Assembly: GCA_947561395.2 (NCBI GenBank)
Contig: OX387185.1
Span: 22,449,866-22,513,865 of the forward strand
Source: Buxus sempervirens
Taxonomy: Eukaryota; Streptophyta; Magnoliopsida; Buxales; Buxaceae
Length of the DNA stretch: 64,000 bases
Reading direction: 5' to 3'
The notes beneath the pieces were generated by a model that had not been told where the DNA came from, ran no database searches, and saw nothing but the letters and a program-made list of their open reading frames with translations. Both the position numbers and the translations under genes were made by a program. Below are positions 26,291-59,429 of the stretch, piece after piece; position 1 is the first letter of the stretch; every line of letters starts with the position of its first letter.

Positions 26291-28092
26291 TGTGAGACAT
26301 GGAAAAAATCAATTTAATGATTTCCTCAATCATCACATGGGATTAAATAAAACAAAGAGTCACCACCATTCAATTTAGGTGTGAATGGACACCAAAATAT
26401 TAAATAAGCACAAAAGGCAAATTTTAGGGCAAAATATCCCTCCTAAAAAAATCAACCAGAGATGGGTAAGGGGATTAAGTTATGAACAGGGGAAGGTGTT
26501 AGGCACCCCTATTCATCCACACAAGGTGGTTGCCAGGTATTGTTCATATTAAAATTAAAGGAAAAAACTTGCTATAAAAATCACACAAAATCACAAAAAA
26601 GGGCAAAAATATATGGTTTTTTCATATGAATAGTCTTATTGATCCAGAACTTTCAAATATGATCATACCATTCCTAGGGTTTCATGATCAAAATAAAATT
26701 AATATAAAATAAAATAAAATCAATTTAATGTGAAAAATCCAAAAATCTAGCTTCAAGCTAAATTCTAGAAATCTAGAAAAATATGATTTTTATAAAATAT
26801 TTCAAAATTGAACTTGAATAGTCCAAGACATAGATAAAGCCCAAATTTCACATTAAATCAGAAAATAAAAACCAAAAATACCCACGTTGACGAAGAACAC
26901 CAAAAGGGGAGAACTTAGACCGTAGGGTCTTCTCTCAATAATGAAAAACGACTCAAAAACAACATCGTGAAACCCTAGAATTTATTTTCAGGCTTCTGGA
27001 TCCAGATCTACCATATTGATCATGATAAATCTAGGATCTTAGCCTAAAACCACAAAAATCACGAAAACAGTGCTGTAGGTGCAAAAGTGGCAAAAATCCA
27101 AATTTTAGCAAAAAGTGATGATCTCATGCTATAAACATCATAGATTCATGTGATTCATTCAGATATATCATAAAAAGCATTAAAACATGATCATGATATC
27201 AAAAGCGGCCACATCTCACAGATTAGAGCACATGGGGGTCTACCCTACGGATCCACCTGTTCCCCTTTCCCCTAGTTCTCTCTTCACGTTTTACGGTTAG
27301 AGAGACTCTTGAGGTACTTAGAGATAGGTTTGGGTATACAAACACAATCACAGGCCTTATTCTATGAAAAAGACAAAAACAGATATGGGGTTCTATTCTA
27401 GGGATCCACCTGTTCCCCTTTCCCCTAGTTCTCTCTTTACGTTTTACGGCTAGAGAGACTCTTGAGGTACTTAGAGACAAGTTTAGGAATACAAAAATAT
27501 ATATGGCCTTATTCTACAGCAATAGAGATGATCCTATTACTTCTAGAATTGAAGACAGAAAATAAAAAGGGATAGGGGACTTACCTGGATTGAGCAGGCA
27601 GAGCAGCAGGGATTCCTTCTCTTGGAGTTCCTTGGACTTCAAAATTTCGTGGCCCTTAGCTAGAGGAGAGAGCCTCTATTTATAGGCAAGCACAGGGGCA
27701 AGGCTGGTCCAGAAGGATATATCCTGATCCTTAGGATAGAGTGAAAATTGGAAATAATGCCCATCCATAGCCAACCAAGGTGGCTTCAGCGAATAAAATA
27801 CTTAATTCGCTCATTTAAAGATATATTGGACTAAAGATAAAGCTCGGAAATCGAGAGAAGGACAAAACTCGCACGTGTCTTTAGTGACCGTAAATGCACT
27901 ACGGTCCAACGGTGACCGTATAGTTTCCACGGGTGCGCCTGACCGTAGATAAGTTTCGGGCGCGATGGGCCCGTGAAGGAAATACGGGCAAAGCCTGTTT
28001 ATTCAATTTTTATGCATTTTTGACCTGTTTTAAGCTCTAATTACATGTTTTTATTATTTTCTCATTTTGTAGTGCAATTTGGGGTGTCTACA
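26291..28092 (-). repeat. 3' LTR of element A
   Basis: 1802 bp, minus strand TGTAGACACCCC ... CATGTCTCACA. TATA box TATAAATA (minus) at 27684-27677. Nearly identical to 50936-52738; the differences are mainly transitions. Two related GTTCTCTCTTCACGTTTTACGG-type segments occur at about 27270 and 27430, a short internal duplication shared by all LTRs of this family here. Confidence 0.95.
27886..27989. promoter_or_regulatory. Four 21-bp dyads in the U3 of the 3' LTR (element A)
   Basis: Dyads start at 27886, 27914, 27941 and 27969 (spacings 28, 27, 28). Arms are GACCGT or GCCCGT against ACGGTC, ACGGGT, TCGGGC or ACGGGC, each around 9 bp. In LTR orientation they lie about 103-206 bp from the LTR start and about 200 bp upstream of the TATA box. 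The other LTR has the same array at 52532-52635. Confidence 0.75.
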
Positions 28093-28108
28093 GCTGCCTC
28101 CTCTTTGC
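28093..28108 (-). other. Polypurine tract of element A
   Basis: Minus strand GCAAAGAGGAGGCAGC directly before the 3' LTR start; primes plus-strand DNA synthesis in LTR elements. The next 300 bp align with 12948-13237 of element B. Confidence 0.75.
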
Positions 28109-28444
28109 TGGTAATTGGAACCAATTACAAGCAGAGAGCAAAAAGACCCACCAATTGCACTTTCTGAGATTTTTGTCTAATCAATTGCACTTTGAAAGGA
28201 TTAAATTGATGATTTTTTGAAAAAAAGAATTGATTGTGGAAGATTTGCTAAGAAGTCCCTCAGCTTAAGGGCCAAATCCTCCTCTCTCCTCTCACTGAGC
28301 ACTTGTGGGCTATGAAGTGAGATTTGAGACAAAATTTTTAAACAAAAGTGGGTAAGGTGGCTATCCTTGCAACTTACAACTAATATGGACATTAATCTTT
28401 TGAAAATTGTGAGAAAATAATAAAAATATGCTATTTTTGGCTTC

Positions 28445-28548
28445 GCCCATATTGTTCTTACGGACTGATGCTGCCCGTAGGTTGTTCACGAGCGAATGGG
28501 ACCGTAATGCTTTCACGGGTGTCTGATGCCCGTACTGATTTTACGGAT
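28445..28548. promoter_or_regulatory. Four 21-bp dyads upstream of the PMD gene (element A)
   Basis: Dyads start at 28445, 28473, 28500 and 28528 (spacings 28, 27, 28, the same phasing as in the LTR). Arms are mostly GCCCGT / ACGGAY or ACGAGC around 9 bp. They lie about 1.3 kb upstream of the PMD start codon. Confidence 0.72.
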
Positions 28549-29853
28549 TTTACTTTTCTTCTTAAGACCGCGATCGCGAATTTCTTCTTCTGCTCGCATT
28601 TTGCCCTAAATCCTTTACGCCCGCACTCTTCTCTCCGGTCCCTGCTTCTTCTTCTCCATCAGTCCGACTTCATCTCCGACGAGCTCCTCATTTTCCGGCG
28701 ACTACTATTATTTCTCCGGCAACGTCGACTATTTCCGGCGACGTCACTTTCTCCAGCAACTTCATTTCGGTCGACGATTCACCTTTTCCAACAAACTTCT
28801 TCTTCTGTCAACCACTTCATTTCAGTCGCCCCTGGCTGTTACGACTGTGCCATTCGTTGCTTCTGATTTCAAGCCATTCATCAGCTGACTTCTTCTTCAA
28901 GTGAGTAGAACCCTTGCTTTTGAGACAAACTCAGAAAAATTTTGACTTTGCACACAGGTATGCCGAAATTGCATTTTTGCTTTGAGCTGTCGAATCTGAA
29001 TTGCTCTGTTTGTATTTTGTTCCAACATGCTGCAATTTGTGAACTCTTTCTGCTTGCATTGAGAATCCCTCCTTCATTTGTGTATTTGCTAATGCCCATG
29101 CTTATATTTTCCTGTATGGACCTTGCTCTGCCTATTTTCCATGTGATTTTCTGCTTGGCTAATCATTGATCAGTTTACTTCTCTGTCTCTAAATAGACAA
29201 ATTTTCTGGATAGATCTCCAAATTTTTAAGCTTACTTATACTGATTTTGTGGCTTTGTATGAATTCATGTTGAACCCATGCCTAGATTTCTGCATTCCCA
29301 ATCCTTGAATTACTGTTTTGATAATTGTTCTATGGATATCTTGAATGCCTATATGATCCTCAATCAAATTCCCAAATTGGTATGCCCTACTGATTTTTCC
29401 TGCAAGTTACCCATGCATGAATTTGCTTGATGAGCTTGCATTTCCCAAAAGTTTTTTTGTTTTTGTAAACTTCCCATGCCTGAACTATATTCTTCTGGAA
29501 CCATTTTCATGGCTGACACCTGGTTGACTTTCAAAAATATCACTGGAACACTCCAAGCCCTTTGCTAACTCCTTGAAATTACACAAAATCAGTAGTTAGG
29601 GAATTAAAGCTTTCTATATACAGATTAGAGTTTTTTAGAAAAACCCAGAACTTTTAAGCATAAATATATCTTCTTAATTAAATCAAAGGCAAATAAAAAG
29701 GTGAACTCCTCCAATTGGTTCCTGATTTGGTCGGGAATTTCTGCCACATTTCTTTTCCTTCTTCCTGCAAACAATTAAGCTTAGTTAAAATAAAATCAAG
29801 CAATAAAGATTTTTTAACAAGCATAATGATCATCTCCCTGATTTGAACCGTAG
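28549..29853 (+). other. 5' flank and probable untranslated exons of the PMD gene
   Basis: No coding region supported. A pyrimidine-rich section (about 28620-28830) with TTCTTCTTC and CTCCGGC runs resembles a plant 5' UTR. AG|GTGAG-like (28899) and CCACAG|GTATG-like sites suggest a 5' UTR intron, which I cannot resolve without transcripts. A matching flank exists in element B. Confidence 0.45.
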
Positions 29854-32677
29854 ATGGCCCGCCTTCAATCAGCTTCTAGGGATCCTGCAGATGAGCCTTC
29901 CTCTCCGAGGGTTAGGCGAGATCCTGCTGATGTGGCCTCGTCTTCGAGGGCCGAGAGGGATTTCGCGCGAGGCGACCCCAGAGGTATACTCTAACCTTTA
30001 TGAAATTTCATATCCTTTCCCAAAATACATCATCCTGATTCTTCAATTATTTTCTTTTAGCCGGCTGTTGAGGCTTCTGGCAGAGATAGGAGCCGTAGCA
30101 GGCGCAGAGCTGGAGGCAGAGATGGAGGCCATGATGAGGGCCATAGAGGAGGCCGTAGAGGGGGCCGTGGCAGAGATGAGGCCAGGACCAGGGTTGAGAT
30201 CCCTGAGGAGGTGGCTGCCCAGATTAGGGATACCGATCTTTTGCATGGCTTGAGGACTCATCCCCCAGCGTGTATTAGGGCGGATATCCCTTTGGAGTTT
30301 GCTATGTCCCACTATAGAGGGAGCTGGGCTAGCTTCACTAGATTCTTGGGAGCCTGCAGTTCAGCCTACCGTCGGGAGTTAGGCTTATATGGATTTGGCA
30401 TGTTTATTACTATTCCGGACGTACGCCTGGATCGGGCCCTCATTGCTGCATTGCTGGAGAGGTTCTTCCCGGAGACATTGAGCTTCCACTTCCCAAATAT
30501 TGAGATTAGGATCCGGCCTTATGATTTCACGCTCATCACCGGGATTAGGATGATAGGTGATGTTATTCCTAAGATGGTGATGCCAGAGGCTGATGAGATT
30601 GCTGGTTATCTTGGATATATTGTGCTGCCTCCTGAGGCATGGGATCGGGGGAGAGCGAGATTGTCTCTGACATGGTTGAGAGAGACTTTCAGTAGGAGGC
30701 AGTTTGGCCAGCTTGCTGCCGGTGATCATGTTTTCTCGTTCGCCTTCCGGTTTCTTTTTATGTATATGATGGGATCCTGCTTCTTTCCAGAGAACACGAC
30801 CTCAGTCAGTCCTCACTTCCTGAGCTTACTGGGAGATCTTCAGCGGGCGAGGAGGTTTGCATGGGGCCCGCTTATTTTTGATACTATTTTGGCCGGCCTT
30901 CGCCGATCAGTGAGCGGCCTCTCTACTTCCAGAGGGGCTGGAGTTGGGTGCAGATTTTTCTGGCCTTTTTTGCAGGTGAGATGTCTATTTCTCTTCTCTT
31001 TCTTTCTCTTTCTCTTTTTCTTATCTCTCCTTTTCTATTCCTCTAACTCTTTTCTTCTTTTTGCAGTTTTTTACTAGGGTTTATATACCCTATATCCGTC
31101 CTACCTCTACGATGCCTGAGGAGACATATCCTATGGCACGTAGATGGTGTCATATAGAGCACGATTCTGAAAAGAGTCATCCCAGGTCTGCCCGGGCCCA
31201 CTTGGACAGGTTGTACCGGTCTGAGGTAATCTTCTTTAATTTCTCTACTTTCTTCTTTTCTTTTCTTCTTGAATCACATATCTGATGTCCTGTTTTGTTT
31301 TTCAGCTATTTGTCCCCAGGATGGAGGACATTCATGAGGTGCTGGCCCTGCAGGCAGCCAGAGATGATGCATTTGTCCCTGACCAGAGACGACAGAGATA
31401 CCAGTTCTTTATTGGTCAGCTGGGCAGCATTTGGTACTACGGCGAGCGCTTCTTCTTTCAGCATGTGGGAGAGCAGCGGATTCTTGCCATCCCGCCAGAT
31501 ACTACTCCTTCCTACCCTCCTATGCCTGTTGATCCTGCCCAGTTCCTAGATTGGACTGAGGCAGAGACATTATTGGAGGAGGGTGACTATGATGCCTGGT
31601 TCAGGCGAGCTTTTGTTGGGTGCCTCATGTCACCTATGCCTATCCGTGGCGGAGTCACTGATATTGGAGGGGTAGTGATTAGGGCCTATGACACTACGGT
31701 ATGTCTTCTTCCTTTTCACCTTTCTATTTTCATTTCATCTGAACTTAGCATTTTTCTGACTTCTTTCTTTTCTATTTCAGGAGGCCCAGTTGGCAGAGAT
31801 CCGGTCTCGATATGCTGATCTAGAGCGCCAGCGAGATGCTGCGATCGCCGAGCGGGATGCCCTCTATATCACCATTTCAGACCTCCGGGGGCAGCTAGCT
31901 AGAGCACAGGGCCAGGAAGGTCCATCTGATGCACAGGACCAGGCGGGTCCATCTTATACTCAGGTTAATTTCTTCTTTTATTTCCATTCCTGCTCTTGCA
32001 TTAGTTTGTCTTGTTCTGACTGAAATTCCTTTTCTTAGTTTCAGGAGGACACAGCCGGCCCTTCTTCACCTGCTTCACCCGTGCCCATGCATTTTCGGGA
32101 CGAGGTATTTTCTGTGGCACGGGTGGAGTTCGTGACGTCTCCCAGTCCAGTAGAGATTCCTGCAGCAGAGCCCGAGGTCGAGGCTGATATTGTACCTGCT
32201 ACTGAGGATGTGCCAGAGTCGGCCCCAGTAGCTGAGACTGCTCCTGCTGCATCTGCTGATGTAGATATGGATTCGGCTATGGACGCCGCTGTGGTAGAGC
32301 CTACCGTGGAGGCTGTGGTGATGGAGGAGGCTACAGCTGATCCTGTAGAGCCCGATCCTGATGCTGATGTACCTGGGACCTCTGCTCCTGCTAGTCCTGC
32401 TATGGAGGATGCCGAGGAGACGCATGCTGCTGTTGATACGTCAGCGGATTCTTCCCGTACTGATTCTGATGTAGATACTTCAGGGTACGTCCCTCCTGAT
32501 CATCCCACTGCTGGCCTTGTGCCTTTATATATGTGGCATGATATTCAGTCTGTTTTGAGCAGGATGACGCGTAGCACAGCCCGCAATGTTGTGCGGCATG
32601 TCTTTGAGCACAGGCGATCTTCAGGCCGTGGTCGAGGCAGAGGACGAGGCCGTGGCCGTAGGGGTGGACCTGCGTAG
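29854..32677 (+). pseudogene. Antisense PMD (plant mobile domain) gene, six exons, exon 1 damaged
   Basis: Exons: 29854-29983, 30061-30975, 31067-31225, 31306-31698, 31781-31963, 32045-32677. Introns are 77-91 bp with GT..AG ends; all joins from exon 2 on are phase 0 and open. Exon 2 opens with an Arg/Gly-rich stretch and then the PMD fold (HYRGSWASFTRFLG, FHFPNIEIRI, SRRQFGQLA, FWPFLQ). Exon 4 continues it (RYQFFIGQLG). Exon 5 is a coiled coil; exon 6 is Pro/Glu/Ala-rich and ends in an RGRGRGRGR tail, possibly nucleic-acid binding. Against the element B copy, exon 1 has lost about 20 codons and its frame, so translation from this ATG would stop early. PMD proteins (Arabidopsis MAIL1/MAIN) act in transposon silencing; extra PMD frames are known in some Tat elements. 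It lies opposite to gag-pol. Confidence 0.8.
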
Positions 32678-32891
32678 ACAGTAGATTAGGATTCTCTTAT
32701 GTATATTTGTACTTTGACAAACTGATGTACTCATTCATATATATATATAAGAAGTTTGATTTGTGTTCATTTGTGTACTCTTCTTCTTTCTTTTCAGTTT
32801 TTATTACATCCTGAATGTTAAAGCAGGAACAAATGAAGCTTAGGAAAACAAAGAAATTAAAAATGCCCCATTTTTTGCATTTTTCGGAAGG
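32678..32891 (+). other. PMD gene 3' end and spacer
   Basis: Short AT-rich spacer after the PMD stop, with a TA-repeat (about 32737-32750) and T-rich sequence that could serve as a 3' UTR/polyadenylation region. No other feature seen. Confidence 0.35.
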
Positions 32892-33023
32892 AACCGTATT
32901 TAACCTACGAGCAAGCCGTGCCCGTAAAGTTACTACAGGCGCACTCTGCCCATGAAGTTTCCACGGTCAAGGGTGTCCGTAGTTCCTATACGGGCGAGTT
33001 TTGCCCGTAGTATAATTACGGAA
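32892..33023. promoter_or_regulatory. Five 21-bp dyads upstream of the DUF7745-type gene (element A)
   Basis: Dyads start at 32892, 32920, 32948, 32975 and 33003 (spacings 28, 28, 27, 28). Arms are variants of RCCCGT / ACGGGC around 9 bp. The array ends 22 bp before a TATA box, a classical proximal-promoter position. Confidence 0.78.
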
Positions 33024-33045
33024 TTTACTGCCTTACGATTTTTTC

Positions 33046-33053
33046 TATATAAA
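33046..33053 (+). promoter_or_regulatory. TATA box of the DUF7745-type gene
   Basis: TATATAAA, 92 bp before the start codon at 33145 and directly after the dyad array, so a short 5' UTR of about 60 bp is expected. The context marks this as a promoter working on the strand opposite to the retrotransposon genes. Confidence 0.65.
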
Positions 33054-33144
33054 CTCATAGGGAACGTCATTGTGACACTTTTATTAGTTGGAAAACTCCC
33101 TGAGCACGTCTTTTCTCGCTTTCCTTGGCTTCTTTGGCGCTTCC

Positions 33145-34949
33145 ATGGCTTCCCCTACGCCGCTTTCTCCTGCCGTTGAATCTCCTCCTGCAAGACAACC
33201 TGTTAGATCAAAATCTCCTAATCTCACCAGGTATAACATTGTGGACTCATTCTATGACAGGTGGGTTAACTCCATGACCCTTGATGAGGAGATTCGCTGG
33301 GGTTCCATCCACTTAGGGCATATCCTACACCTCCCTAAAATTCCCTTTAAGTGGGAAATTATTGAAGCTTTGATTGGACACTGGTTCCTGAACTAAATCT
33401 TTTTCGGTTTGATGATAAAGAGATGACTCCTACCATAGAAGAAATTGAAACCATCCTTGGCCTTAGATTTTCTGAAAAAGTTGTGAACCCACCCCTAAAG
33501 CTTAGTTATAAAAAAGAGGCTTCCACTTTCTTGGGTATAGGGAAGAAGGACCTAGGAAATTCTGATGCACTATTGACCTTGTCCAAGACCTTTTTGACTG
33601 AAAAACTTCTGAGGAGTGAAGACAAGGACTCCAGGTTTAATGCTTTGACTTTGGTAGTGGTCAATCAGCTGCTTTTGCCACGGGGTGATGACCAGGTTGA
33701 CTTGGCTCTCATCTCAGTCATCTGCCAGGTTAGGGAACATGAGAGATTGGCCCCTATGATCCTAGCAGAGATATACCAGGCCCTTACTGACTGCTATTTT
33801 AGGAAGAAGAAGCGCTTCCTTGCCTGCGCCCCTATCCTACAGGTAAAAAATATACATATATTTTTTTTCTTTTCTTCTTCTTTTTTTTTTCTTTCTTCTT
33901 CTTCTCTTTTTCTTTTTCTTCCTCTTCTTTTTTTTTCTTTTCCTTCTCTCTCTTTTTTTTCCTTTTTTTTTCTTTCTTTTTTTCTTTCTTTTTTCTTTTT
34001 TTCTTCTTCTTTTTTTTTTTTTGGAAATAATTTGAAATATTCCCTATTTCTGCAGCTTTGGTTGCTTGACCATCTTAGCCAAGTTGAAGAAATAACTCGC
34101 CGCTTCTTTCCAAGATTGAAAGTTCCTGTTTTAATGAGCAATAGGGGATGTCCTAACATCCAAGGTGGCAAGCAAGGCTGGTTCACTTTCTTGGGTACTC
34201 TCCAGGATGATCAAGTGAGATGGCCCGGCACTTATCAGCCTACTCGAGAGACAGTGATCAGCTTTAGAGATAAAAACTTTCTGGTCCTAGCAGGCTTGAA
34301 ATCTGCTGTTCTCTATCTTCCTTTGAGGGTTCTTCGGCAGTTTAGAGCGATCCAGGGGATTATGATCCCTACTGGATATGAGAAGCTTTTAGGGCCACTT
34401 ACACCAGCCTCCATGGGGCTAACTGCTCAATTAATGAAAGAGTGGTCCTACGTCCGTTTTCTGCAGGGTCCTATCTTTTCAGAGTCCCATGTGAAGGACT
34501 ATCACTTCTGGATCAAAGAACAGGTGCAGAGTCATGCCCTAGTACCAGAGGATCCTCCTGCAGTTCTTCCTCCTACCTATGAAGATATTCTGGAGTCAGA
34601 AAGGGCAACCCATAAGCGGCTTCAACAAATATGGGTACGGGAGGCTCAAGAACTTAGGATAAAAGTTCTTGTTCTGGAGAGGAAGCTTGAAGAGTAGAAG
34701 TTTGGCCGCATTGCCATGGAGAAGAAACTTGAAGAACAAAGGTAGGCTCGTCGCTTTGAAGTCCGAGTGATGCGGAAGAAGTATCAGGATTCCTTGGCCG
34801 ACCTTAGGGCGTTGAAGATCAAGCTTTCTTTTTCAGATGAGGTCATCTCCTTTTTGAGTGATCCTGATGCAGAGGGTGCTTCTGGAATCATTGCAACTCA
34901 GGCAGCTAGGATTAGGGAGCTTGAGGAGCAGTTAGGGAGTAGGGATTAG
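33145..34949 (+). pseudogene. Antisense DUF7745-type gene, two exons, with one frameshift and two stops
   Basis: Starts MASPTPLSPAVES at 33145. The order TRYNIVDSFYDRW, WEIIEALIGHW, FRFDDKEMTPTIEEIE, LLPRGDDQVDLALISV, LWLLDHL and LRQFRAIQG is that of DUF7745 proteins, plant proteins distantly like PMD and common in gypsy elements; their role is unknown. Intron 33843-34055 (213 bp) is very pyrimidine-rich, with CAG|GT and TGCAG borders. The C-terminus (34560-34949) is a Glu/Lys/Arg coiled coil. Damage: a 1-base loss near 33383 and in-frame TAGs at 34695 and 34743, both readable as former CAG codons. Convergent to gag-pol, 950 bp from its end. Same strand as the PMD gene, 470 bp downstream of it, with its own dyads and TATA box. 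Confidence 0.75.
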
Positions 34950-35899
34950 ATTCTTTTATCTCTTTTTTTTTAATTCATTTTTTTTTCATACTTTTATACA
35001 AAAGCAAACTCCATTAGTGGAAAGATATTAGATTTAATTCAAAAATAGGTTTTATATTATTGGCCTCAGAATTCTCAGATGCTTATAAAAACAGAAGTTT
35101 TATGAAAAAGTATTTGATTTCTCATCACTGGCCAAAGTATAGTTTTTTTTTTTTGAAAGCTGATCCAAAACACTTAATCACATATAATTAAAGGAATTAA
35201 AATCATGTTGAATAATGAAAAAGGTAGTCCAAGCAATAGGGAGAGACCAAATCTGTCTACCCCGTGACCTTTAGAATCATCCCCTAATGGTTTTACCTTC
35301 ATGATGGACCCTGCTAATCTGCTCAGTTTCCAGTGCTCATGCTGATTAAATTTAGACCACATGATCAACTCAACCTTTGATTTTTTTTATTTTTTATTTT
35401 TTTCTATTCTTTCTTTTTTTTCTTTTTGCCCTTGTTGTCCCTAGAGCCAATTACGGTTTTCACTAGGGTTGGCCTCTGCATTCCATCATCACCAATCTTA
35501 CTCTGAAAGTTGAATGAATATACTAAAATCACCGAGGTCTTAATAATAGAACGAAACAAAGGCTAGGCTCAGTTTATGAAAGAAAAGGTATTAAAGGCTC
35601 AAAATTTTTTAAGTGTGAAAAATGGGTCAACCGGACTTACAGTCATGGTAAATTCAATCCCATTCCCCTTCTTTTGTATTTGGCTTTCATTTGCCCCTAT
35701 TTTTTTCTTTTCTCTTTTTTTCTCTCATTCTTTTTGCCCCTATTGGCTTTGCCCTTATTGGCTTTGCCCCAGTATAAGACTGTAAGTCCAGTTTAGGTTT
35801 AACAAAAAAAGATGAACAAGCTCAAATTGGCTTGACTAGGGATGCAAATTTTGGGATATAAGGAACAATGGCCTCAGATCATTTCCTAGTAATATTCAT
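34950..35899. other. Spacer between the convergent DUF7745-type gene and pol
   Basis: T-rich and stop-rich; no gene seen. Several long T/C runs (for example about 35380-35430 and 35700-35760) could serve as 3' ends for transcripts from either strand. Confidence 0.5.
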
Positions 35900-36406: not shown

Positions 36407-38220
36407 TGTGAGACATGGGAAAAAATCAAAATTATGATTTCCTCAATCATCACACGGGATTAATTTAACAAAGAGTCGTCACCATTCAATTTAGGTGTGA
36501 ATGGACACCAAAATATTAAATAAGCACAAAAGGCAATTTTAGGGTAAAAATAACCCTAAAAAAACCAGAGATGGGTAAGGGGATTAAGTTATGAACAGGG
36601 AAAGGTGTTAGGCACCCCTATTCATCCACACAAGGTGGTTGCCAGGCATTGTTCATGTTTTACAAATAAAAAAGGCTTGCTATAAAAATCAGGAAAAATC
36701 ACAAAAAAAGCAAAATTGTATGGTTTTTTCATATGAATAGTCTGATTGATCCAGGACTTTCAAACATGATCATACCATTCCTAGGGTTTCATGATCAAAA
36801 TAAAATTGAGATAAAATCAAACAAAATCAATTTAAAGTGAAAAATCCAAAAATCTGGCTTCAAGTCAAAATTCTAGAAATCTGGAAAAATATGATTTTTA
36901 TAAAATATTTCAAAATTGAACTTGAATAATCCAGGACATAGATAAAGCCCAAATTTCACATTAAATCTGAAAATCAAAACAAAAAATATCCACATTGATG
37001 AAAAACACCAAAAAGGGAGAATTTAGACCGTAAGGTCTTATCTCAAAAGTGAAAAACAATTTAAAAACCATATCATGAAACCCTAGGATTTATTTTTAGG
37101 CTTTTGGATTCAGATCTATCATATTGATCATGATAAATCCAAGATCCTAGCCTAAAATCACAAAAATCACGAAAACAGTGCTGTAGGTGCAAAAGTGGTA
37201 AAAATCCAAATTTTAGCAAAAAGTGGGGATCTCATGCTATAAACATCATAGATTCATGTTATTCATTCAGATATATCATAAAAAGCATTAAAACATGATC
37301 AGAATATTCAAAATAGCCACATCTCACAAATTAGAGCATATGGGGGTCTACCCTACGGATCCACCTGTTCCCCTTTTCCCCTAGTTCTCTCTTCACGTTT
37401 TACGGTTAGAGAGACTCTTGAGGTACTTAGAGATAGGTTTGGGTATACAAACACAATCATAAGCCTTATTCTATGAAAAAAAAAAGAAAAAACAGATATA
37501 GGGTTCTATTCTAGGGATCCACCTGTTCCCCTTTCCCCTAGTTCTCTCTTCACGTTTTACGGCTAGAGAGACTCTTGAGGTACTTAGAGACAAGTTTAGG
37601 AATACAAAAATAGATATGGCCTTATTCTACAGCAATAGAGATGATCCTATTACTTCTAGAATTGAAGACAGAAAATAAAAAGGGATAGGGGACTTACCTG
37701 GATTGAGCAGGCAGGCAGCAGGGATTCTTCTCTTGGAGTTCCTTGGAGTTCTTTGGACTTCAAAATTTCGTGGCCCTTAGCTTGAGGAAAGGCCCTCTAT
37801 TTATAGGCAAACACAAGGGTATGGTTGGTCCAAGGTTTGGCAAGATAGAGTTTCAGTTTGAGTTAAACACAAGATCATGCCAATCCTTTATCCACAAGGA
37901 TAAATGAGATAATTCGAACAGATAAATAAGAGAATTCGCTTATCCAAGAGAGATATTTGGGTGCAGATAAGGCTCAAAAATCAAAAAGGTAAAATTCGCA
38001 CAAAGACCCCCATGCCCGTATATATATTACGGTCGCGCCCTGCCCGTATTATTAATACGGGCACGCCGTAACCGTATATCAACTGCAGGTATGACCGGTC
38101 CGTAAACAAAATACGGTCGTGACCAGTTTGGCCAGATTTTACACTTTTTTGACCTGTTTCAAATCCCAATTAATATTTTCAATTATTTTCTCATTTTTAG
38201 TGCAATTTGGGGTGTCTACA
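36407..38220 (-). repeat. Solo LTR of the same superfamily inside the integrase
   Basis: 1814 bp, same ends as the LTRs of element A (minus TGTAGACACC..CTCACA), but clearly more diverged from them than they are from each other. Flanks ATTAC (36402-36406) and CTTAC (38221-38225) are a 5-bp target duplication with one change. The TATA box is at 37805-37798. Its U3 carries four dyads. It splits the integrase gene in the same orientation as its host. Confidence 0.88.
38014..38118. promoter_or_regulatory. Four 21-bp dyads in the nested solo LTR
   Basis: Starts at 38014, 38042, 38070 and 38098, exactly 28 bp apart. The second has perfect GCCCGTATT-type arms. Same consensus as element A, though the LTR body has diverged, so the motif is conserved beyond its surroundings. 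Confidence 0.72.
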
Positions 38221-38597
38221 CTTACTACCATCTTCTGAATGATCTTCTTTATATTCTTATTTGCTGCTTCTACTACCCCATTCATCTTTGGTCTATAAGG
38301 AGCTAACTTATGATGAGTTATCTGAAATTGTTCACACATCTTCTTCATGTCTTTGTTCTTAAGGTTTGAAGCATTGTCTGTTACTATGGCACTTGGCAAA
38401 CTGTAGCGACAAATGATATTGTGCTTCAAGAACTTAAGAACATGGCTACTCGTAATGTTTGCATAAGAAGCCGCTTCTACCCACTTGGTAAAATAATCGA
38501 TTGCTACGAGTATAAATCTATGTCCATTTGATGCCTTTGGAGAGATCATTCCAATGACATCTATACCCCACATAGAAAAAGGCCACGGAGATGTCAT
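38221..38597 (-). pseudogene. Integrase catalytic core (element A)
   Basis: The D-D-E core is readable: GIDVIG, then FILVAIDYFTKWVEA, VTDNASNL and the GVVEAANKNIKK segment with the catalytic Glu. Integrase inserts element DNA into the chromosome. The frame is broken from the preceding part by a 1-base loss near 38605 and ended downstream by the nested LTR at 38220. Confidence 0.9.
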
Positions 38598-43800: not shown

Positions 43801-44223
43801 CTTAGTAAAAACCCTTTTTTGGTCTGAAGGTGCTGCTGGAACATTAACCCTCATGGGGGCCGGGGTAGATGGAGCAGGTGGAGTAGGAAAATGAGCTGGT
43901 ATGTTGATTTGTATGGGCTTGTTAGGGCCAGATGGTGGCTGTACCATATTTACCTCACGCTCCTTCTTGTTCCCATTCTTTTTTATCCCGCTTCCTTTCT
44001 TCAGATTAGGCTCTTGCTGACTAACCATGGTAGAGTGGTCAATTATCTTACCTGACCTGATCCCGTCTTCTATTCGGTCAGCCACTTGAACCAAGGCAGC
44101 AAAATTAGTGGTGGTCTGACCCACCAGGTGGCTGTAGAATGGTTGACCCAAAGTGCTGATGAAAGTAGAAATCATTTCTATTCTAGCATGGGTTGCCTGA
44201 CCTAGGAGGCCATCTCCCTCCAC
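40897..44223 (-). pseudogene. gag C-terminal part, zinc knuckle, aspartic protease and G-patch-like region
   Basis: An open frame of 1108 codons without a stop. At about residues 196-210 is a variant knuckle, C-x2-H-x5-H-x4-C (CDYHMGAPGHPIDKC). At about 586 is the protease active site VLIDNGSALNVCP, and near 661 LLGRPWIH. Next is a G-patch-like segment (GLGVNLQGRIEP ... GLGSKP), usual in Ogre polyproteins. Between knuckle and protease is a Pro/Lys-rich region with three copies of a PPLVINVP motif. The end is acidic (EEETEDEEDDVP) and leads into RT. The first codons belong to gag, entered by a frameshift. Confidence 0.9.
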
Positions 44224-44450
44224 CTCTTAGCATATTGCCTTACAGTCTCATCCCTTCCTTTGCTCATTCTCATGACGTCGTACCTGTCTGGCACGATCTC
44301 TGAATTGAACCGGTATTGAGCCAGGAAGGCATCGGCTAGGTCCTTCCATCTTTTGATCTTTCCATGGTCGAGAGTGGCGAACCATCTTAATGCGGTTCCA
44401 GTTAGGCTCCTTTGGAAAAGTTGGATCAAGATACCCTCATCCTGCCCGAA
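44202..44450 (-). pseudogene. gag core (Retrotrans_gag domain)
   Basis: IQLFQRSLTGTALRWFATLD, WKDLADAFLAQYRFN and SKGRDETVRQYAKRWREMA form the standard gypsy gag core that packs element RNA into particles. It follows the N-terminal part in frame after a TAG at 44453-44451. It ends at another TAG (44204-44202), followed by a 1-base loss; the next frame picks up EMISTFISTLGQPFY. Confidence 0.9.
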
Positions 44451-44978
44451 CTAGCATAGGGCACCGCAATACAACTTTAGGTGGCTCATGGGGCAACCAG
44501 TGCCATCATACTTGTCCAAGTCTAGGCACTTAAACTTATCCGGCAGGTTAACATTGGGGTATAGGCACAGGTCTTCAAAATTGGTGCCTCCAAAGTTGTT
44601 TACCCCTTTGACTTCCCTTAGTTCATCTTGGATCATTTCTAGCTTATGCATGAACTTTCTTTCAACCTCTTCCCTTATCCTTTCCTTTTCCTTAGCCTTG
44701 TTTGACTCAGCTGTCTCATCCCTGGTCAGTATAGGTTCAGGGGTGGGTTCATAGACGGGTTCAGGAGTTGGTTGCACTGGAGGTGGGATATTGACTGGGG
44801 GTGGAGGTGCAGGGTTGGATGTGGATGCCTGGTTCTGGGCCTGCATTTGTTGGGCATGTACTTGTTGGGCCTGTACTGACAGTATATTCTCTAGCATTCG
44901 GGCTAATCCTACCACTTGTTCTTGGAGTAGAACAACATCTGGATGAGGAGCATCAACTTCATCTTCAATGGGATTCAT
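44451..44978 (-). pseudogene. gag N-terminal part
   Basis: Starts MNPIEDEVDAPHPDVVLLQEQ; then a Gln/Ala-rich stretch, a Pro-rich spacer (PPPPVNIPPPVQPTPEP), a charged helix (KAKEKERIREEVERK), and the segment PDKFKCLDLDKYDGTGCP leading into the gag core. TAG at 44453-44451 stops it. The ATG at 44978 is the first in frame and is preceded by AT-rich leader, so it is probably the true start. Confidence 0.85.
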
Positions 44979-45237
44979 GGCGCGAGCTCTTGATCTGGTT
45001 ACAGGAGCTATGATTGCAAGTGTATTAGTACCTAAAAAAATAAAGAGAAAATATCAGTGCCAATTTAATCTCATTCACATGCCTAGGAATGCCTATGTGC
45101 AAGCTGGGTGAACACGAGTTTGGATTTTTTTTTCTTTATTTGCTTCTTTTTTTCTTTTTTTTATTTCTTTTTTTTTTTGAATTGAATTATTGGAATATTC
45201 TAGGGCTTCCAACAGGTCCCACAAAAGAGAGAAAGAT

Positions 45238-46410
45238 CTGAAATTCAAAGGCTTTCAGAGGCCCGGGGGTTTTTGAAAAAGGTCTGAAATTCAAAGGCTT
45301 TCAGAGGCCCAGGGATGTTTTTGGAAAATGTCTGAAATTCCAAGGCTTTCAGAGGCCCAGGATTTTTGATGAAAGTCTGAAATTCAAAGGCTTTCAGAGG
45401 CCCAGGGATATTTTGATGAAAGTCTGAAATTCAAAGGCTTTCAGAGGCCCAGGGATATTTTGAAAAAAGTCTGAAATTCAAAGGCTTTCAGAGGCCCAAA
45501 GATCTGAAATTCAAAGGCTTTCAGAGGCCCAAAGATCTGAAATTCAAAGGCTTTCAGAGGCCCAAAATGTCTGAAATTCAAAGGCTTTCAGAAGCCCAAA
45601 AGATCTGAAATTCAAAGGCTTTCAGAGGCCCAAGAAAAAGGTCTGAAATTCAAAGGCTTTCAGAGGCCCAAAAGAAAAAGGTCTGAAATTCAAAGGCTTT
45701 CAGAGGCCCAAAAGTTCTGAAATTCAAAGGCTTCAGAGGCCCAAAAGAAAAAGGTCTGAAATTCAAAGGCTTTCAGAGGCCCAAAAGTTCTGAAATTCAA
45801 AGGCTTTCAGAGGCCCAAAAGGAAAAGGTCTGAAATTCAAAGGCTTTCAGAGGCCCGAAGATCTGAAATTCAAAGGCTTTCAAAGGCCCAGGATTTTTGA
45901 AAAATCTGAAATTCAAAGGCTTTCAGAGGCCCAAGAGTTTTTTGAGAGAAAAAGTCTGAAATTCAAAGGCTTTCAGAGGCCCGAGGATTTTTTGAAAAAT
46001 CTGAAATTCAAAGGCTTTCAGAGGCCCAAGAGTTTTTTTGAGAAAAAAGTCTGAAATTCAAAGGCTTTCAGAGGCCCGAGGATTTTTTGAAAAATCTGAA
46101 ATTCAAAGGCTTTCAGAGGCCCAAGAGTTTTTTTGAGAAAAAAGTCTGAAATTCAAAGGCTTTCAGAGGCCCGAGGATTTTTTGAAAAATCTGAAATTCA
46201 AAGGCTTTCAGAGGCCCAAGAGTTTTTTTGAGAAAAAAAGTCTGAAATTCAAAGGCTTTCAGAGGCCCAAGAGTTTTTTTGAGAAAAAAAGTCTAAAATT
46301 CAAAGGCTTTCAGAGGCCTGAGGATTTTTTGAAAAATCTGAAATTCAAAGGCTTTCAGAAGCCCAAGAGTTTTGAAAAAGTCTGAAATTCAAAGGCTTTC
46401 AGAAGCCCAA
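45238..46410 (-). repeat. Leader minisatellite of element A, about 28 dyad copies
   Basis: About 28 copies of a unit containing CTGAAA, nine bases (TTCAAAGGC), then TTTCAG and GGCCC. The arms are perfect complements, so each unit is a 6-9-6 dyad like those in the promoter arrays, though with another half-site. Spacers are A-rich, 11-27 bp, so the period varies from about 34 to 48 bp, with higher-order alternation in the right half. Lies between the dyad array and gag. Open frames through it are by-products. Confidence 0.9.
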
Positions 46411-46562
46411 GGAACCTTTCTCTCACATTTTTTTTAATTATTTTGTTTTTTTTTTGTTTTTTTTTGAAGCATTTCATTCAAACTTTTTTCCTTTTATCAT
46501 TATTTAAAGGTTAAAGGAAGATTTTAGTGGGAAAAACTGATTAAAGTTGAATATTCCGAGAA

Positions 46563-46695
46563 AACCGTATACACAGTACAGTCCAGCCGTGCCCGTATTC
46601 AAATTACGAGCAAGCCGTGACCGTATGCAAAACACGGGCGAGCCTAGCCCGTATAATCAGTACGGGCAAGCCCAGCCCGTATACTAAATGCGGTT
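46563..46695. promoter_or_regulatory. Five 21-bp dyads upstream of gag (element A)
   Basis: Starts at 46563, 46591, 46619, 46647 and 46675: exactly 28 bp apart, with 7-bp spacers of CAGCCGT/AAGCCGT type. Arms are GCCCGT or GACCGT against ACGGGC, ACGAGC and similar around 9 bp; the fourth copy is a perfect 6-bp-arm dyad. Position corresponds to 2209-2295 in element C. Confidence 0.78.
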
Positions 46696-49600
46696 TTACG
46701 GAACCCTGTTATATTTTTCCAGTTTTTACATGGTTTGATCACTTTAATTGCTCATCCAAACATACGGTTCACCCAGTACAGAGCTTCTAAACTGTCCCAA
46801 AGTGGACCTTGGCCTATTTGTAAAAACACCTGCTTGGGAGGGCACATGTACCCTCCAAATTGACACCATACTCAAGAATTTGGTACCCTTTTGTTGACTC
46901 TTACATGAACATTGGGTAGGATTGATTCTAAACAGAGTTAGAAACTCTTCCTATGGGCTGCACCAATTTTAGAAAATATTCATATTTTGGGACCAATTTT
47001 ATCCCGAACCAATGGGCACCATGTGTAAAACCCCGATTTTTCACCTAATAAATAAATAAATAATAAATAAAAGAAAATATGAGTTAAGTCCTAATTAAAA
47101 TAAAAAGTGAAGATTTAGAGGATAATTAATCCCAATAAGTTCTAAGTTGAAAATAAAGAAATAATTTTAATGAAATTAGCCTAAAAGAATAAAAAGGGTA
47201 TTTTGGTAATTTCGAGAAAAAGGGAAATTAGTAAATAGATCATCAAATAATAATTAGAATTAGAAAATAGAAGAAAACAAATTATTTTGACAAGTTGGAA
47301 ATTAAAAGAAATTAATAAAAGCCTAAAAGTGGGAAAAAGGGTAATTAGGAGATTTCACGTTTTAATTTGGAGAAAATAAGGTTTTAAGTGATAGAAATGT
47401 TTAATTTAATATTTTGCACGAAATTAGGTTATTTTCATGAGTTTAGATAATAAGAAACTTAATTAGGATTGTTTAAGTAGAAAATAAAAGGTGGAGAAAA
47501 AGTAGGAATTAAATTAGAAGGATTAGACATTAACTAGACCATGGTTGGGTTAGCCCAAATTTAATTAGCCAATTAGGGTTGGTTTAGGATTTCTAAAGCC
47601 TAGTATAAATAGGAGACTAAGGTTAGAAGAGAGGTAATTTTCGTGGGTTTCTTATGGAGAGAAAAGAGGGAGAGAAAGGAAGGAGGGTTCTAATGGAGGT
47701 GTCTGACCAGCCACCATCGAAATGCGATCGGGGAAAATCCGCACGGTGGATCACCTTCAAATTTGGAGGTTTTGTTCGTGACTGATGGAACTACAATGTG
47801 AACGGTGGAGATTTGAATTGGAAGGGTCTAGCTTGGTGCGGTTGGGAGCAACATTCTGGTCTAGAATTAGAAAGTGCAATGGAAGAAGGATTTAGCGTAT
47901 AAGGCAAGTAGTAACCCTTGGAAAACGTGAGGAATTGCATGATTTGGTTTTCTGTGATTTCATATGGTTGAATGGATTAGTCGAAACAGTATTTACATGG
48001 AATCAAGTTGTTTATATTTTAGAGTTTTGTGTTCTTGAAGAATTTGCTAAAGTAAGGAAGAAACTTGGTTTGATCATGAAATAAATTGTAGGATGGTATT
48101 TAATTAATAAGAATTGATCTAGAAGGCTCTAGGTATGTTTTAGAATGTTATTAGATTAATTTAGACCAAGAAAACATAAAGCAAAAGCATAGGAATCCGA
48201 AATTGTAAAATCTGGAAAATTCTGTTAAAAATTGCACGAGCGCCCAGGATCGCCTAGGATCGCTCAGCCCTGTAGAGGTAGGCGCTCTAAGTAAAATTTG
48301 TAGATTTTGGGGATTTTGTAATTCGAATAAATATCCAATAATTCTTATGATTAGTTAAGCATGTTAGCATCTTTATAAGGGCCTAATTAAGCTATAAAAA
48401 TTATAAAATTAATTTGGAAAGAATAAGCAATAAATTTAAGGTTATAATGAAAGGATTGTTTATAAAAGAGTCAAAGGGTATGGATATTGCTAGAAATAAT
48501 ACTACTGAAATTTATAGCTTATAAAAATCTTTTAAACTTCATTTTAGGTTTGTAGAACATGCTGGAAAAATAAAATACAGAAAATTTTATTAGTAACTAG
48601 CTTAGGTGTTAATATAGGAAATTGGATTCTAATAAAAGGGAATAATCAAAGGAAACTCTAAGTAAGATTTGTTTTACTTTATTTAAGCTTTCAATATGAA
48701 TGTTGAATTCTGGAATTGCATAAACTCTGGTTTCTATCGAATTTATAATACATGAGCTTTATTCGAATATAATTAAGAAATTGCATATGTTATCCTGAAA
48801 AAGGCTTTAATGGAATTCGTAAGGATTGAATCATGGATTTCACATGGAATGGAATACTTTGGTATGGATTGGTATGTGGTATGATGTTGTTCTCTGAATT
48901 TTACGGTTGGGTGATACGGCTTATGTGGTGGAGTTTGATACTATCTTTTACGGCAGAGATGGGTAATCCTCTGTGTAGAGATGTGTAATCCTTTACGGGT
49001 AAAAGTGTGTATGCCTCCTACATTAGCGTGTCCTCCCGTATGTGGTTTTATCGTGGTTTGTGTCAGTGGGCTTAGCTGTATATGGATCCATAGTTTTGGC
49101 TGGTTAGCTAAGTGGTATTTAGTTTGGGTTGATTTACTCCTATATTGCGAGCGCGCTTCCCTTTGCAAGTTAGTTTGCTCTGGGAGGGTCCTATGTCTGG
49201 AGGGACACCCCGGTGAGCCGCTGGTGATTCCCTGTACATGTGGATAAGCGACCACACTCCATGTATTGATTCTGGTGCTGCATGCTGGTGGTACGTCCAA
49301 CTCTGCGGGGTTCGTGCGCAATAAGTCGGTGACTACGGCTCTTGCCTAAGCTGCGCTGCATGGGGCTTGAGTATCATCAAGTAGCACTGCCCCTAAGCCG
49401 CACGGTGGAACAGCATTTAGTCGAGTGTCATCTCAAATACTTATCATCTTTGTGAGTCCTGCAATGGCACGTGTTTTATCGCTTTTGTCGGTTTTACCCC
49501 GTTAATATCAAGCTACTGGTATTTATACATGATCGTCTGTTTAACCGCTTTATTTGGAATTGCCATGAATAACTTGGATTTCTCGTCTTATCGTTGATTA

Positions 49601-50914
49601 ATCGAATACCTCATGACTATTTGCTTATATTGGACTGTTTCAAATTGCATGCACCTGCTACTTGCTGAGATGTAAATCTCACTCCGTTTTCCCCTATATT
49701 TTTCAGGTTGCTTGGAGAGATCGCGAAGATGGGGTTTTAATTTGATGGGTAGAATTATAATTGGTATTAATGTCACATGTTGATGAGATAAACTTAATTG
49801 TAAATTGAATTGAATATATTGATTAAAGAATTGTTTATTTTATTTGGCCACCATAACTCTGATGTAATTGATTTATAAATTTTAAAATTATTGTGAATCT
49901 TGGTATGTATCTGACCCCAGCTTCGTGGTAACATCTCAAGTTTGATTGTTGAATCGGACTTGGGTTGTTACAGTAGCGAACCGGGTTCGGGTTGGGTGCC
50001 GATTTGCACTGACCCGGGTTCGGGGCGTTACACCATGACACCCCTATGATATGAAAATAATGCAAAACAATAGGATTACCTTGTTACCTTGTTTACCTTG
50101 AATATAGCATCCGCATTATGCCCTGGTTTGTAAGCCATGCATACGGCCTTCCCACAATCATACAAACCCATATTCCCACGTAATTGTATACTTTAGCCAA
50201 AAACATGTAACTCCACCTTCAAGCGTAGGGGTTTTGGGTTTTGGCTTAATGACAACTTAGCACTCAAGCCTAGTGATGACCAGAATCCCAGATCCACGTT
50301 ATCATCACATCATTAGCTCAAAGTTCTAAGGTGAATGTTTTCACTTTTGCTTTCCGAAGTATCGACCTCGTTGCGCCAAGCTACACACATTCGGGTTCAA
50401 CTTCCTATAGGTTAAGGGTAGGCTGTGTAAAAGTAAAAGGTGCACAGTGCATTGTAAAAATAGGTTACATTCACAACGTCCCAAACCCTTGCCACTCTTT
50501 TCGCAGCCATGCATAAACAAACCAAGGCATAATAGGAAAGCATATTTAAAATAAACAAGTAAATAAAGCAATCTTATAGCACCCAAAACATGCTCATAAA
50601 AAAATCATCTAATCATGCAAACATATGATCATGTTATACACCCAAAATCGTCATAGAGATCATGCTGAAAATTAAAACATGCTATCATAAAAATATAGCA
50701 AGAAATAAGCATAGTTCATCAAAACGAACCTCCCCTATGCATGTTTGTAGAAACAATCCTATAAATCAAAATTAAGCATGTTTCTACCCCCATGAATTCT
50801 TGAGCAATAATTCAGATTTAAAACATACTCAACATGCTTAAGAACACAAAATAGCAAGCAAATCCAAAAATATCAAAAACATGAACTAAAACACCAAAAG
50901 GCTCAAATCCACAA
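46696..50914 (-). other. Leader of element A, interrupted by a solo LTR
   Basis: 46696-47023 and 50033-50914 are leader sequence without genes. They hold conserved blocks also found in element C (for example 50190-50500 with 3060-3330, including a GTAGGGGTTTTGGGTTTTGG block). The remainder is the solo LTR 47024-50032. I found no extra frame of the kind reported upstream of gag in some Ogre elements. Confidence 0.65.
47024..50032 (+). repeat. Solo LTR (TGTAAAACCCC..GGGGCGTTACA family) in the leader of element A
   Basis: 3009 bp with perfect 5-bp target duplications CCATG (47019-47023 and 50033-50037). TATA box TATAAATA at 47604-47611, so plus orientation, opposite to its host. Related to 15708-18002 by its ends and general layout. 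A dyad-like GAGCGCCCAGGATCG..GATCGCTC segment lies at about 48238-48265. No gag or pol. Confidence 0.88.
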
Positions 50915-50933
50915 GTCCCCAGCAGAGTCGCCA
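50915..50933 (-). other. Primer-binding site of element A
   Basis: Minus strand TGGCGACTCTGCTGGGGAC, two bases after the 5' LTR, identical to element C. The tRNA primer is not identified from memory with certainty. Confidence 0.85.
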
Positions 50934-50935
50934 GT

Positions 50936-52738
50936 TGTGAGACATGGAAAAAATCAATTTAATGATTTCCTCAATCATCACACGGGATTAAATAAAACAA
51001 AGAGTCGCCACCATTCAATTTAGGTGTGAATGGACACCAAAATATTAAATAAGCACAAAAGGCAAATTTTAGGGCAAAATATCCCTCCTAAAAAAATCAA
51101 CCAGAGATGGGTAAGGGGATTAAGTTATGAACAGGGGAAGGTGTTAGGCACCCCTATTTATCCACACAAGGTGGTTGCCAGGTATTGTTCATATTAAAAT
51201 TAAAGGAAAAAGCTTGCTATAAAAATCACACAAAATCACAAAAAAGGGCAAAAATATATGGTTTTTTCATATGAATAGGCTGATTGATCCAGAACTTTCA
51301 AATATGATCATACCATTCCTAGGGTTTCATGATCAAAATAAAATTAATATAAAATCAAATAAAATCAATTTAAAGTGAAAAATCCAAAAATCTGGCTTCA
51401 AGCTAAATTCTAGAAATCTAGAAAAATATGATTTTTATAAAATATTTCAAAATTGAACTTGAATAGTCCAGGACATAGATAAAGCCCAAATTTCACATTA
51501 AATCAGAAAATAAAAACCAAAAATACCCACGTTGATGAAGAACACCAAAAGAGGAGAACTTAGACCGTAGGGTCTTCTCTCAATAATGAAAAACGACTCA
51601 AAAACAACATCGTGAAACCCTAGAATTTATTTTCAGGCTTCTGGATCCAGATCTACCATATTGATCATGATAAATCTAGGATCTTAGCCTAAAACCACAA
51701 AAATCACGAAAACAGTGCTGTAGGTGCAAAAGTGGCAAAAATCCAAATTTTAGCAAAAAGTGGGGATCTCATGCTATAAACATCATAGATTCATGTGATT
51801 CATTCAGATATATCATAAAAAGCATTAAAACATGATCATAATATCAAAAGCGGCCACATCTCACAGATTAGAGCACATGGGGGTCTACCCTACGGATCCG
51901 CCTGTTCCCCTTTCCCCTAGTTCTCTCTTCACGTTTTACGGTTAGAGAGACTCTTGAGGTACTTAGAGATAGGTTTGGGTATACAAACACAATCACAGGC
52001 CTTATTCTATGAAAAAGACAAAAAACAGATATGGGGTTCTATTCTAGGGATCCACCTGTTCCCCTTTCCCCTAGTTCTCTCTTCACGTTTTACGGCTAGA
52101 GAGACTCTTGAGGTACTTAGAGACAAGTTTAGGAATACAAAAATATATATGGCCTTATTCTACAGCAATAGAGATGATCCTATTACTTCTAGAATTAAAG
52201 ACAGAAAATAAAAAGGGATAGGGGACTTACCTGGATTGAGTAGGCAGAGCAGCAGGGATTCCTTCTCTTGGAGTTCCTTGGACTTCAAAATTTCGTGGCC
52301 CTTAGCTAGAGGAGAGAGCCTCTATTTATAGGCAAGCACAGGGGCAAGGCTGGTCCAGAAGGATATATCCTGATCCTCAGGATAGAGTGAAAATTGGAGA
52401 TAATGCCCATCCATAGCCAACCAAGGTGGCTTCAGCGAATAAAATACTTAATTCGCTCATTTAAAGATATATTGGACTAAAGATAAAGCTCGGAAATCGA
52501 GAGAAGGACAAAACTCGCACGTGTCTTTAGTGACCGTAAATGCACTACGGTCCAACGGTGACCGTATAGTTTCCACGGGTGCGCCTGACCGTAGATAAGT
52601 TTCGGGCGCGATGGGCCCGTGAAGGAAATACGGGCAAAGCCTGTTTATTCAATTTTTATGCATTTTTGACCTGTTTTAAGCTCTAATTACATGTTTTTAT
52701 TATTTTCTCATTTTGTAGTGCAATTTGGGGTGTCTACA
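50936..52738 (-). repeat. 5' LTR of element A
   Basis: 1803 bp, about 98.9% identical to 26291-28092 by eye. TATA box (minus) at 52330-52323. Dyad array at 52532-52635. It drives the element RNA leftward through the PBS, gag and pol, and on across the antisense genes. Confidence 0.95.
52532..52635. promoter_or_regulatory. Four 21-bp dyads in the U3 of the 5' LTR (element A)
   Basis: Starts at 52532, 52560, 52587 and 52615; same sequence and phasing as 27886-27989. Upstream of the LTR TATA box. Probable enhancer or operator-like site by position and repetition. Confidence 0.75.
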
Positions 52739-59420: not shown

Positions 59421-59429
59421 ATGATAGCA

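Follow-up and report, generated by a model that had tools for sequence, protein, structure and literature searches.

VANDALs are Mutator-type DNA transposons. Related VANDAL families carry arrays of short motifs in their non-coding parts, and the motif is family-specific (YAGTATTAY for VANC21, AGTTGTCC/AC for VANC6), with the VANC anti-silencing protein and its motif evolving together according to the accessible parts of these reports (PMC5735166, PMC10398659, PMC12859917). Ogre elements, which are long terminal repeat (LTR) retrotransposons, have a second RNase H and extra open reading frames (ORFs), and the accessible text on them does not mention arrays of cis-acting sites (PMC6317226, PMC9289625); a plant mobile domain (PMD) is reported for 57% of Ogre elements (PMC6317226), and their primer-binding site is given as tRNA-Arg type (PMC9289625). 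The antisense ORFs of Retand and Grande encode other protein domains, no target sites being named in the portions available (PMC11963269, PMC7264820). The PMD proteins MAIN and MAIL1 are required for expression of genes with a common promoter motif; in the MORC1 promoter this DOWN motif reads CATGCAGTTT, and direct binding is not shown in the available sections (PMC7156037, PMC9899485). Here we describe element A, an Ogre-type LTR retrotransposon in a 64,000-nt stretch of Buxus sempervirens DNA (the window; contig OX387185.1, positions 22,449,866-22,513,865, assembly GCA_947561395.2), which carries arrays of dyads, that is, pairs of inverted 6-bp arms around a 9-bp centre. The arm sequence of these dyads differs between families and is mostly uniform inside each element, a pattern that was not visible to the first-pass annotation of this DNA.

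By analogy, the nearest known logic is that of VANC and VANDAL, though element A, which has LTRs, a primer-binding site and a reverse transcriptase (RT), is no VANDAL. Short family-specific motif arrays lie in its non-coding parts, as in VANDALs; the VANC motifs are arrayed in one orientation in the reports available, whereas the sites here are 9-bp-spaced dyads and their reader protein is a candidate only. The DOWN motif differs from the dyads and was absent by eye from the arrays of element A. Among the titles, abstract openings and passages covered by a literature search, none reported dyad arrays of this kind in Ogre elements (subscription journals and preprints were outside its scope).

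Dyad arrays of element A and of a sister family

The arrays of 4, 4, 5 and 5 dyads described by the first-pass annotation are all present, starting at 27886 and 52532 (both LTRs), 28445, 32892 and 46563 (Table 1). Together with the nested solo LTR, element A has 22 distinct 6-9-6 dyads (4 U3, 4 on the PMD side, 5 on the DUF7745 side, 5 in the leader and 4 in the solo LTR; U3 lying at the start of the LTR), all of which fit a 9-bp centre. The exact dyad pattern gave 4 matches in the window, two of them being the two LTR copies, versus 0 in 100 shuffles, and a pattern of 5-base arms with up to 2 mismatches gave 30 matches versus 7.4 expected. A family-neutral core that favours no arm class (CCG, 11 bases, CGG; CCG-N11-CGG) matched 34 times versus 1.8 in Markov shuffles, with 1-6 matches at every other centre length in the range 5-14. 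Arrays belonging to A or to a sister family, B, account for 29 of these 34 matches. A chance origin of the A arrays is excluded. The 9-bp preference in the window is visible solely with the core, because perfect 6-bp inverted repeats without it are equally frequent (76 each) with 9- and 11-bp centres.

The sister family is present in the window as B1 and B2, which have LTR termini in common with A. Its dyads (AACCGY-N9-RCGGTT) have mostly the same centre length as those of A but other arms (RMCCGT in A). The outer two bases are AA in 1/28 half-sites of A versus 21/22 of B, counted on exact-core matches (Fisher 7e-12), and the true A/B split of the 9 window arrays is the best among 126 splits; the 9 arrays in the split test were picked with class-specific patterns, the matches behind the AA count were not. 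Two places are collinear between the families: the leader (B1 2380-2281 with A 46773-46681, E=0.001) and, weakly, the PMD side (B2 9289-9235 with A 28386-28440, E=0.05).

Arm classes across the host genome

Scanning of the 676.5-Mb host genome, with the reversed pattern as control, gave 15,454 matches for RCCCGT-N9-ACGGGY (control 44), 32,622 for ATCCGG-N9-CCGGAT (control 36) and 9,063 for the LTR terminus (control 0). A sample of 76 LTR starts was then picked by the 20-bp terminus alone, blind to the arms; it comprises 71 of 100 places among the terminus matches listed, all within the first 8.8 Mb of one contig, and 5 LTRs of the window. The first-pass annotation had made its claim depend on the arrays being present in other copies, and it stands in this respect, since 72/76 LTR starts carry clustered N9 dyads (at least 2 in the first 650 bp, one core mismatch tolerated). 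Exact-core dyads numbered 255 with a 9-bp centre and at most 29 for any other length from 0 to 20, versus 2.75 at centre 9 in Markov shuffles of the same starts.

The arms of the 76 starts fall into classes: ATCCGG in 39, RMCCGT in 17, AACCGY in 9, ATCCGA in 5, other in 2 and none in 4. A stricter count confined to the first 300 bp gave 38, 18, 10, 6, 2 and 2 in the same order. One locus (L042; L-numbers denote loci sampled in the host genome) was scored as ATCCGG owing to a nested LTR of that class. The constant 27/28-bp spacing reported by the first-pass annotation holds within A (28 bp in 14/17 steps, 27 bp in 3/17) and is confined to that class; it loses general importance, as ATCCGG arrays step by 39 bp and AACCGY arrays are irregular.

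Two side observations were made in these scans. Eight loci (L016, L018, L025, L027-L029, L032, L035) have GCCCGT dyads with a rather uniform centre (ATTTGAAGT/ACTTCAAAT types); several adjoin a TATAAATAGAG box, with a second array about 0.8 kb off, and may represent one more distant family. At G000:C1:8464678-8571932, a row of eight minus-strand LTR termini shows a near-constant period of 15.32 kb, as if a 15.3-kb LTR-bearing unit had been amplified in tandem.

One arm class per element

In elements with several readable places, among them A, B1 and B2 of the window, the arrays are of one class, bar single odd dyads. The 96 ATCCGG dyads among the matches listed, where this class alone was displayed, form 33 clusters, and 25/33 resolve into five complete sets with matching distances, each consisting of U3, leader, DUF7745-side, PMD-side and U3 arrays; the other 8 clusters form none. 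The inner places were assigned by spacing in four of the five sets, and in two partly by sequence (leader of L107; PMD side of L044 and L048). With the family-neutral core, the leader arrays were ATCCGG in 3/3 elements of that class with a visible primer site, and each of these arrays opens with an AACCGG dyad followed by three others; the fourth leader stretch scanned (L108) contained neither primer site nor array. The same core gave ATCCGG for the DUF7745- and PMD-side arrays of L110 and AACCGY for those of L111 (one element each; L110 is the element of L053 and L111 that of L086), along with further clustered core matches of no class in and around the genes. Beyond the DUF7745 gene of L111, towards pol, this B-type element has an extra 4 AACCGY-like dyads (7109-7224 in reverse-complement coordinates); no array was found at that place in A.

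The PMD-side array is of the LTR's own class in 8/8 ATCCGG and 2/2 AACCGY 3′ LTRs whose homology extends there. Single odd dyads include one outer arm of B type in the leader array of A (GCGGTT at 46690) and one half-site of RMCCGT type on the PMD side of L078. Six ATCCGG 3′ LTRs (L051, L064, L083, L097, L100, L103) showed no own-class array in the 800-900 bp read, where homology reaches only 350-550 bp; dyads sit 1.1 kb away in L051. No PMD-side array was found in the stretch read of L074 (no class), of L080 (ATCCGA) or of the A-type 3′ LTRs L055, L069 and L093, the homology of the last three reaching only to -335. The arrays upstream of L042 and L049 belong to the LTR that hosts them, because an ATCCGG LTR is inserted there in an RMCCGT LTR, and the array next to L091 belongs to an inverted neighbour LTR.

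The conserved part of the dyad

The solo LTR nested in A is 93% identical to the A LTR below the TATA box, 59% between array and TATA, and 76% before the array, as if U3 evolved faster or had been exchanged. Within the array, identical positions amount to 30/32 for the core (CCGT/ACGG), 9/16 for the outer two arm bases, 20/36 for the centres and 10/20 for the linkers (Fisher core versus centre plus linker, p=9e-5; whole arms versus centre plus linker, p=0.004). The first-pass annotation had the arms kept and the centres free; the centres do vary, and the part that is kept is the core and not the outermost arm bases, given 30/32 versus 9/16. CpG retention between the two LTRs is 7/8 in A's arms, 3/10 in other U3 (p=0.025) and 9/14 below the TATA box. 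Between B1 and B2, identity is 67/72 in the arms, 44/55 in the centres and 209/263 in other U3.

Diversity across copies was computed without alignment, in samples whose selection demanded the core and made no use of the outer arm bases. The outer bases are less diverse than the centres in ATCCGG (0.038 versus 0.199; 24 distinct arrays, U3 flanks 0.072), in A arrays with 28,27,28 spacing (0.094 versus 0.263; 6 arrays, flanks 0.182) and in B (0.153 versus 0.243; 7 arrays, flanks 0.277). Core diversity is low in every group, though here selection demanded the core.

These patterns bear on two readings without a protein made by the element for the sites. The regular 28- and 39-bp periods suggest that the arrays were born by tandem duplication, and such duplication with exchange between arrays might keep their likeness without any function; since neighbouring dyads differ in their centres and keep the core, where exchange would homogenise both, since divergence is seen in linkers only a few bases away from the arms, and since 9 is the sole strongly favoured centre length once the core is required, such leftovers are a very unlikely explanation. 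The short, dense and family-specific sites might alternatively recruit a host silencing factor and be kept because that factor adapts to the element, which we consider highly improbable, as the element would gain by losing them, whereas nothing in the fast-changing U3 is better conserved than the core.

A role of the dyads at the RNA level was weighed against the complementarity of their arms. U3 and leader should be transcribed in genomic RNA, where each dyad could fold into a 6-bp stem with a 9-nt loop serving packaging, stability or silencing. Paired arm positions are complementary in 100/132 cells in A versus 101.0 with shuffled partners, and in 86/102 in B versus 88.8, so no excess of complementary pairs exists; each arm of a dyad varies without regard to its partner, which fits two protein-bound half-sites and not a hairpin stem. 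The DUF7745 array moreover lies upstream of its TATA box, and no Rfam match was obtained in the window at gathering scores, which makes RNA hairpins extremely improbable.

Candidate reader proteins and proposed mechanism

The first-pass annotation proposed a dimeric protein that co-ordinates the promoters of the element. Judged on the DNA itself, the reading as dimer-binding sites has good support from the two-fold arms, the 9-bp centre, the core kept amid drifting centres and the recurrence of the sites at the same places in other elements and families; the phasing drops out as an argument. Its companion claim of an array at every promoter-like site is not supported, as the DUF7745 array alone adjoins a TATA box; the PMD array of A is about 1.3 kb from the likely PMD start codon, the U3 array is some 200 bp upstream of its TATA, and no TATA box was seen near the leader array.

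The dyads are probably a family-specific cis code that works in the manner of operators, docking a dimeric DNA-binding protein of the element's own making, for which the fast-diverging PMD protein is the best candidate. Each half-site has the form NNCCGN. All classes seen share the CCG core and the 9-bp centre; what is peculiar to a family is the outer two bases and the final one (RMCCGT, AACCGY, ATCCGG, ATCCGA). Arrays of 2-6 such sites, found in U3 ahead of the LTR TATA box, in the leader and in front of both antisense genes, would be read by a protein most likely encoded by the element; the antisense PMD protein may read the arms, DUF7745 being a possible partner. Acting in trans, the protein could control or de-silence the LTRs of copies that belong to its own family, and might feed back on its own genes in a manner resembling VANC and VANDAL; activation and anti-silencing would be equally compatible with the sites.

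PMD is favoured over DUF7745 as the reader because its divergence sets an ATCCGG element apart as the arms do and that of DUF7745 does not. In this comparison B is represented by L111, and D is the ATCCGG element of L110. Pieces of PMD exons are 65% and 65% identical between A and B, 49% and 46% between A and D, and 50% and 49% between B and D, and the DUF7745 pieces 80% and 70%, 84% and 78%, and 78% and 62%, respectively. The concordance of PMD with the arms is only suggestive. Both proteins have stretches that resemble coiled coils by eye and would suit a dimer, domain-library matches being sub-threshold only. Searches found no PDB sequence relative and no protein for the PMD piece, and one potato protein for DUF7745. 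In viral contigs no relatives were found by DUF7745 or by RT, and 11 stretches with a triple-dyad pattern included none that prefers a 9-bp centre; the exact LTR terminus was found in neither viral nor prokaryote contigs.

A number of observations weigh against this proposal. The concordance of PMD and arms rests on three elements, one per class, and a distant family (L016; DUF7745 pieces 35-47% identical) has RMCCGT-type arms, so that arm class does not simply track relatedness; no PMD was found in the 10 kb read of L016. Among the exons of PMD and DUF7745 that were tested, Pfam recognised none with a classical DNA-binding domain, and structure models of their pieces (mean predicted local distance difference test score, pLDDT, 38.2 and 45.5) were too poor and were not used. 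When no core is required, counts of perfect 6-bp inverted repeats across the 76 LTR starts favour 9 bp only slightly (202, against 186 for 11 bp and 158 for 7 bp). Named classes are mixed in 9/76 LTRs, 8 of these combining ATCCGG with ATCCGA. The outer bases are not conserved in A arrays with 28,28,28 spacing (0.283 versus 0.211 for the centres; 6 arrays, flanks 0.357), and no significant signal of a CpG-protection footprint was seen outside the arms in A or B. Clustered core matches of other or no class lie upstream of L051, L056, L062 and L092, where they may fall outside the elements; partial homology to B2 was seen in the L056 stretch.

One or more host transcription factors could bind the dyads instead, with families using different host paralogues. 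Such factors would suit the CCG core and 9-bp centre that all classes seen have in common, the recurrence of RMCCGT-type arms in L016, and the resemblance of AACCG to MYB cores, which might point to MYB-like factors for that class. The arrays of an element shift their arms jointly within one host genome, for which a fixed factor needs several switches, and exact-core matches are nearly missing from two stretches of the window (one stray at 21879 in 16-26 kb, none in 53-64 kb); host factors are thus unlikely, though they deserve more weight than leftovers, silencing or hairpins.

Structure of the elements in the window

Element A fits the Ogre lineage (Tat clade) in its sequence features. A 5-bp target duplication (CACCC) flanks it on both sides, and Pfam matches RVT_1, RT_RNaseH, RVT_3, Integrase_H2C2 (just below cut-off) and rve follow in order along the minus strand, so that a second RNase H stands between the first and the integrase, as in described Ogre elements. 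An extra antisense ORF encodes PMD (Pfam E=4.9e-17). A primer-binding site TGGCGACTCTGCTGGGGAC follows both 5′ LTRs in the window (A and B1). This copy of A is not intact, because the solo LTR splits the integrase and the DUF7745 reading frame shifts near the gene start.

Some further repeats were observed. Between gag and the leader array, and adjoining the latter, both A (45232-46413) and B1 (1063-1476) have a block of tandem repeats with units of about 45 and 79 bp. Roughly 1 kb of additional sequence (5844-6856) is present in the B1 LTR, and parts of it match, in inverted orientation, 22-534 and 735-885 on the B1 side. Outside A, a large palindrome at 59425-61477 consists of long arrays of an 89-bp repeat in two opposite orientations.

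Table 1. Positions of element A, the sister-family LTRs and their dyad arrays, counted from the first nucleotide of the window
Feature	Position	Strand	Remarks
Element A, Ogre-type (Tat clade) Ty3/gypsy LTR retrotransposon	26291..52738	-	gag-pol on this strand; from termini, flanks and domains
5′ LTR of A	50936..52738	-	98.8% identity with 3′ LTR
3′ LTR of A	26291..28092	-	
Primer-binding site of A	50915..50933	-	
U3 dyad array, 5′ LTR of A	52532..52635		4 dyads, class RMCCGT; ~200 bp upstream of TATA at 52330
U3 dyad array, 3′ LTR of A	27886..27989		4 dyads; copy of 5′ LTR array
Leader dyad array of A	46563..46695		5 dyads; between primer-binding site and gag
Dyad array upstream of antisense DUF7745 gene of A	32892..33023		5 dyads; 22 bp before TATA at 33046
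Dyad array upstream of antisense PMD gene of A	28445..28548		4 dyads
Antisense PMD gene, candidate binding protein	29854..32677	+	several exons, limits approximate; Pfam PMD 30061-31077
Antisense DUF7745 gene	33088..34949	+	limits approximate; Pfam DUF7745, weaker PMD
Solo LTR of related copy, nested in integrase region of A	36407..38220	-	
U3 dyad array of nested solo LTR	38014..38118		4 dyads; overlooked by first-pass annotation
B1, 5′ LTR of sister family	3901..7339	-	primer-binding site 3880-3898 identical to A's
U3 dyads of B1	6960..7226		6 dyads, class AACCGY, one with 10-bp centre
Leader dyads of B1	2209..2295		3 dyads, class AACCGY; place homologous to leader array of A
B2, 3′ LTR of another sister-family copy	13238..15670	+	
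U3 dyads of B2	13351..13618		6 dyads, class AACCGY, one with 10-bp centre
Dyads upstream of antisense PMD gene of B2	9171..9230		2 decayed dyads; homologous to PMD array of A, weak alignment

Implications

What antisense genes do for giant plant retrotransposons is described as an open question in the available text (PMC7264820, PMC11963269), as is the mode of action of PMD proteins (PMC9899485). Tens of thousands of family-specific sites in one genome make both questions directly testable, and swap experiments are ready to hand in the several arm classes, of which three were observed together with PMD and DUF7745 genes of their own. Tentatively, and at somewhat less than even chances, the dyads may amount to a self-recognition code of Ogre elements, in which the antisense PMD of each family would bind its own CCG-core dyads at the LTR, the leader and the promoters of its own genes, arms and protein would change together, and sister families in one genome would thereby not cross-activate one another; such a code would be a VANC-like system of anti-silencing or activation, of independent origin in retrotransposons, and would explain the role that PMD proteins had before their adoption by hosts as MAIN and MAIL1. 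If this is true, sequence-specific self-recognition, known from VANDAL DNA transposons, would extend to LTR retrotransposons, and host PMD silencing proteins could descend from parasite regulators.

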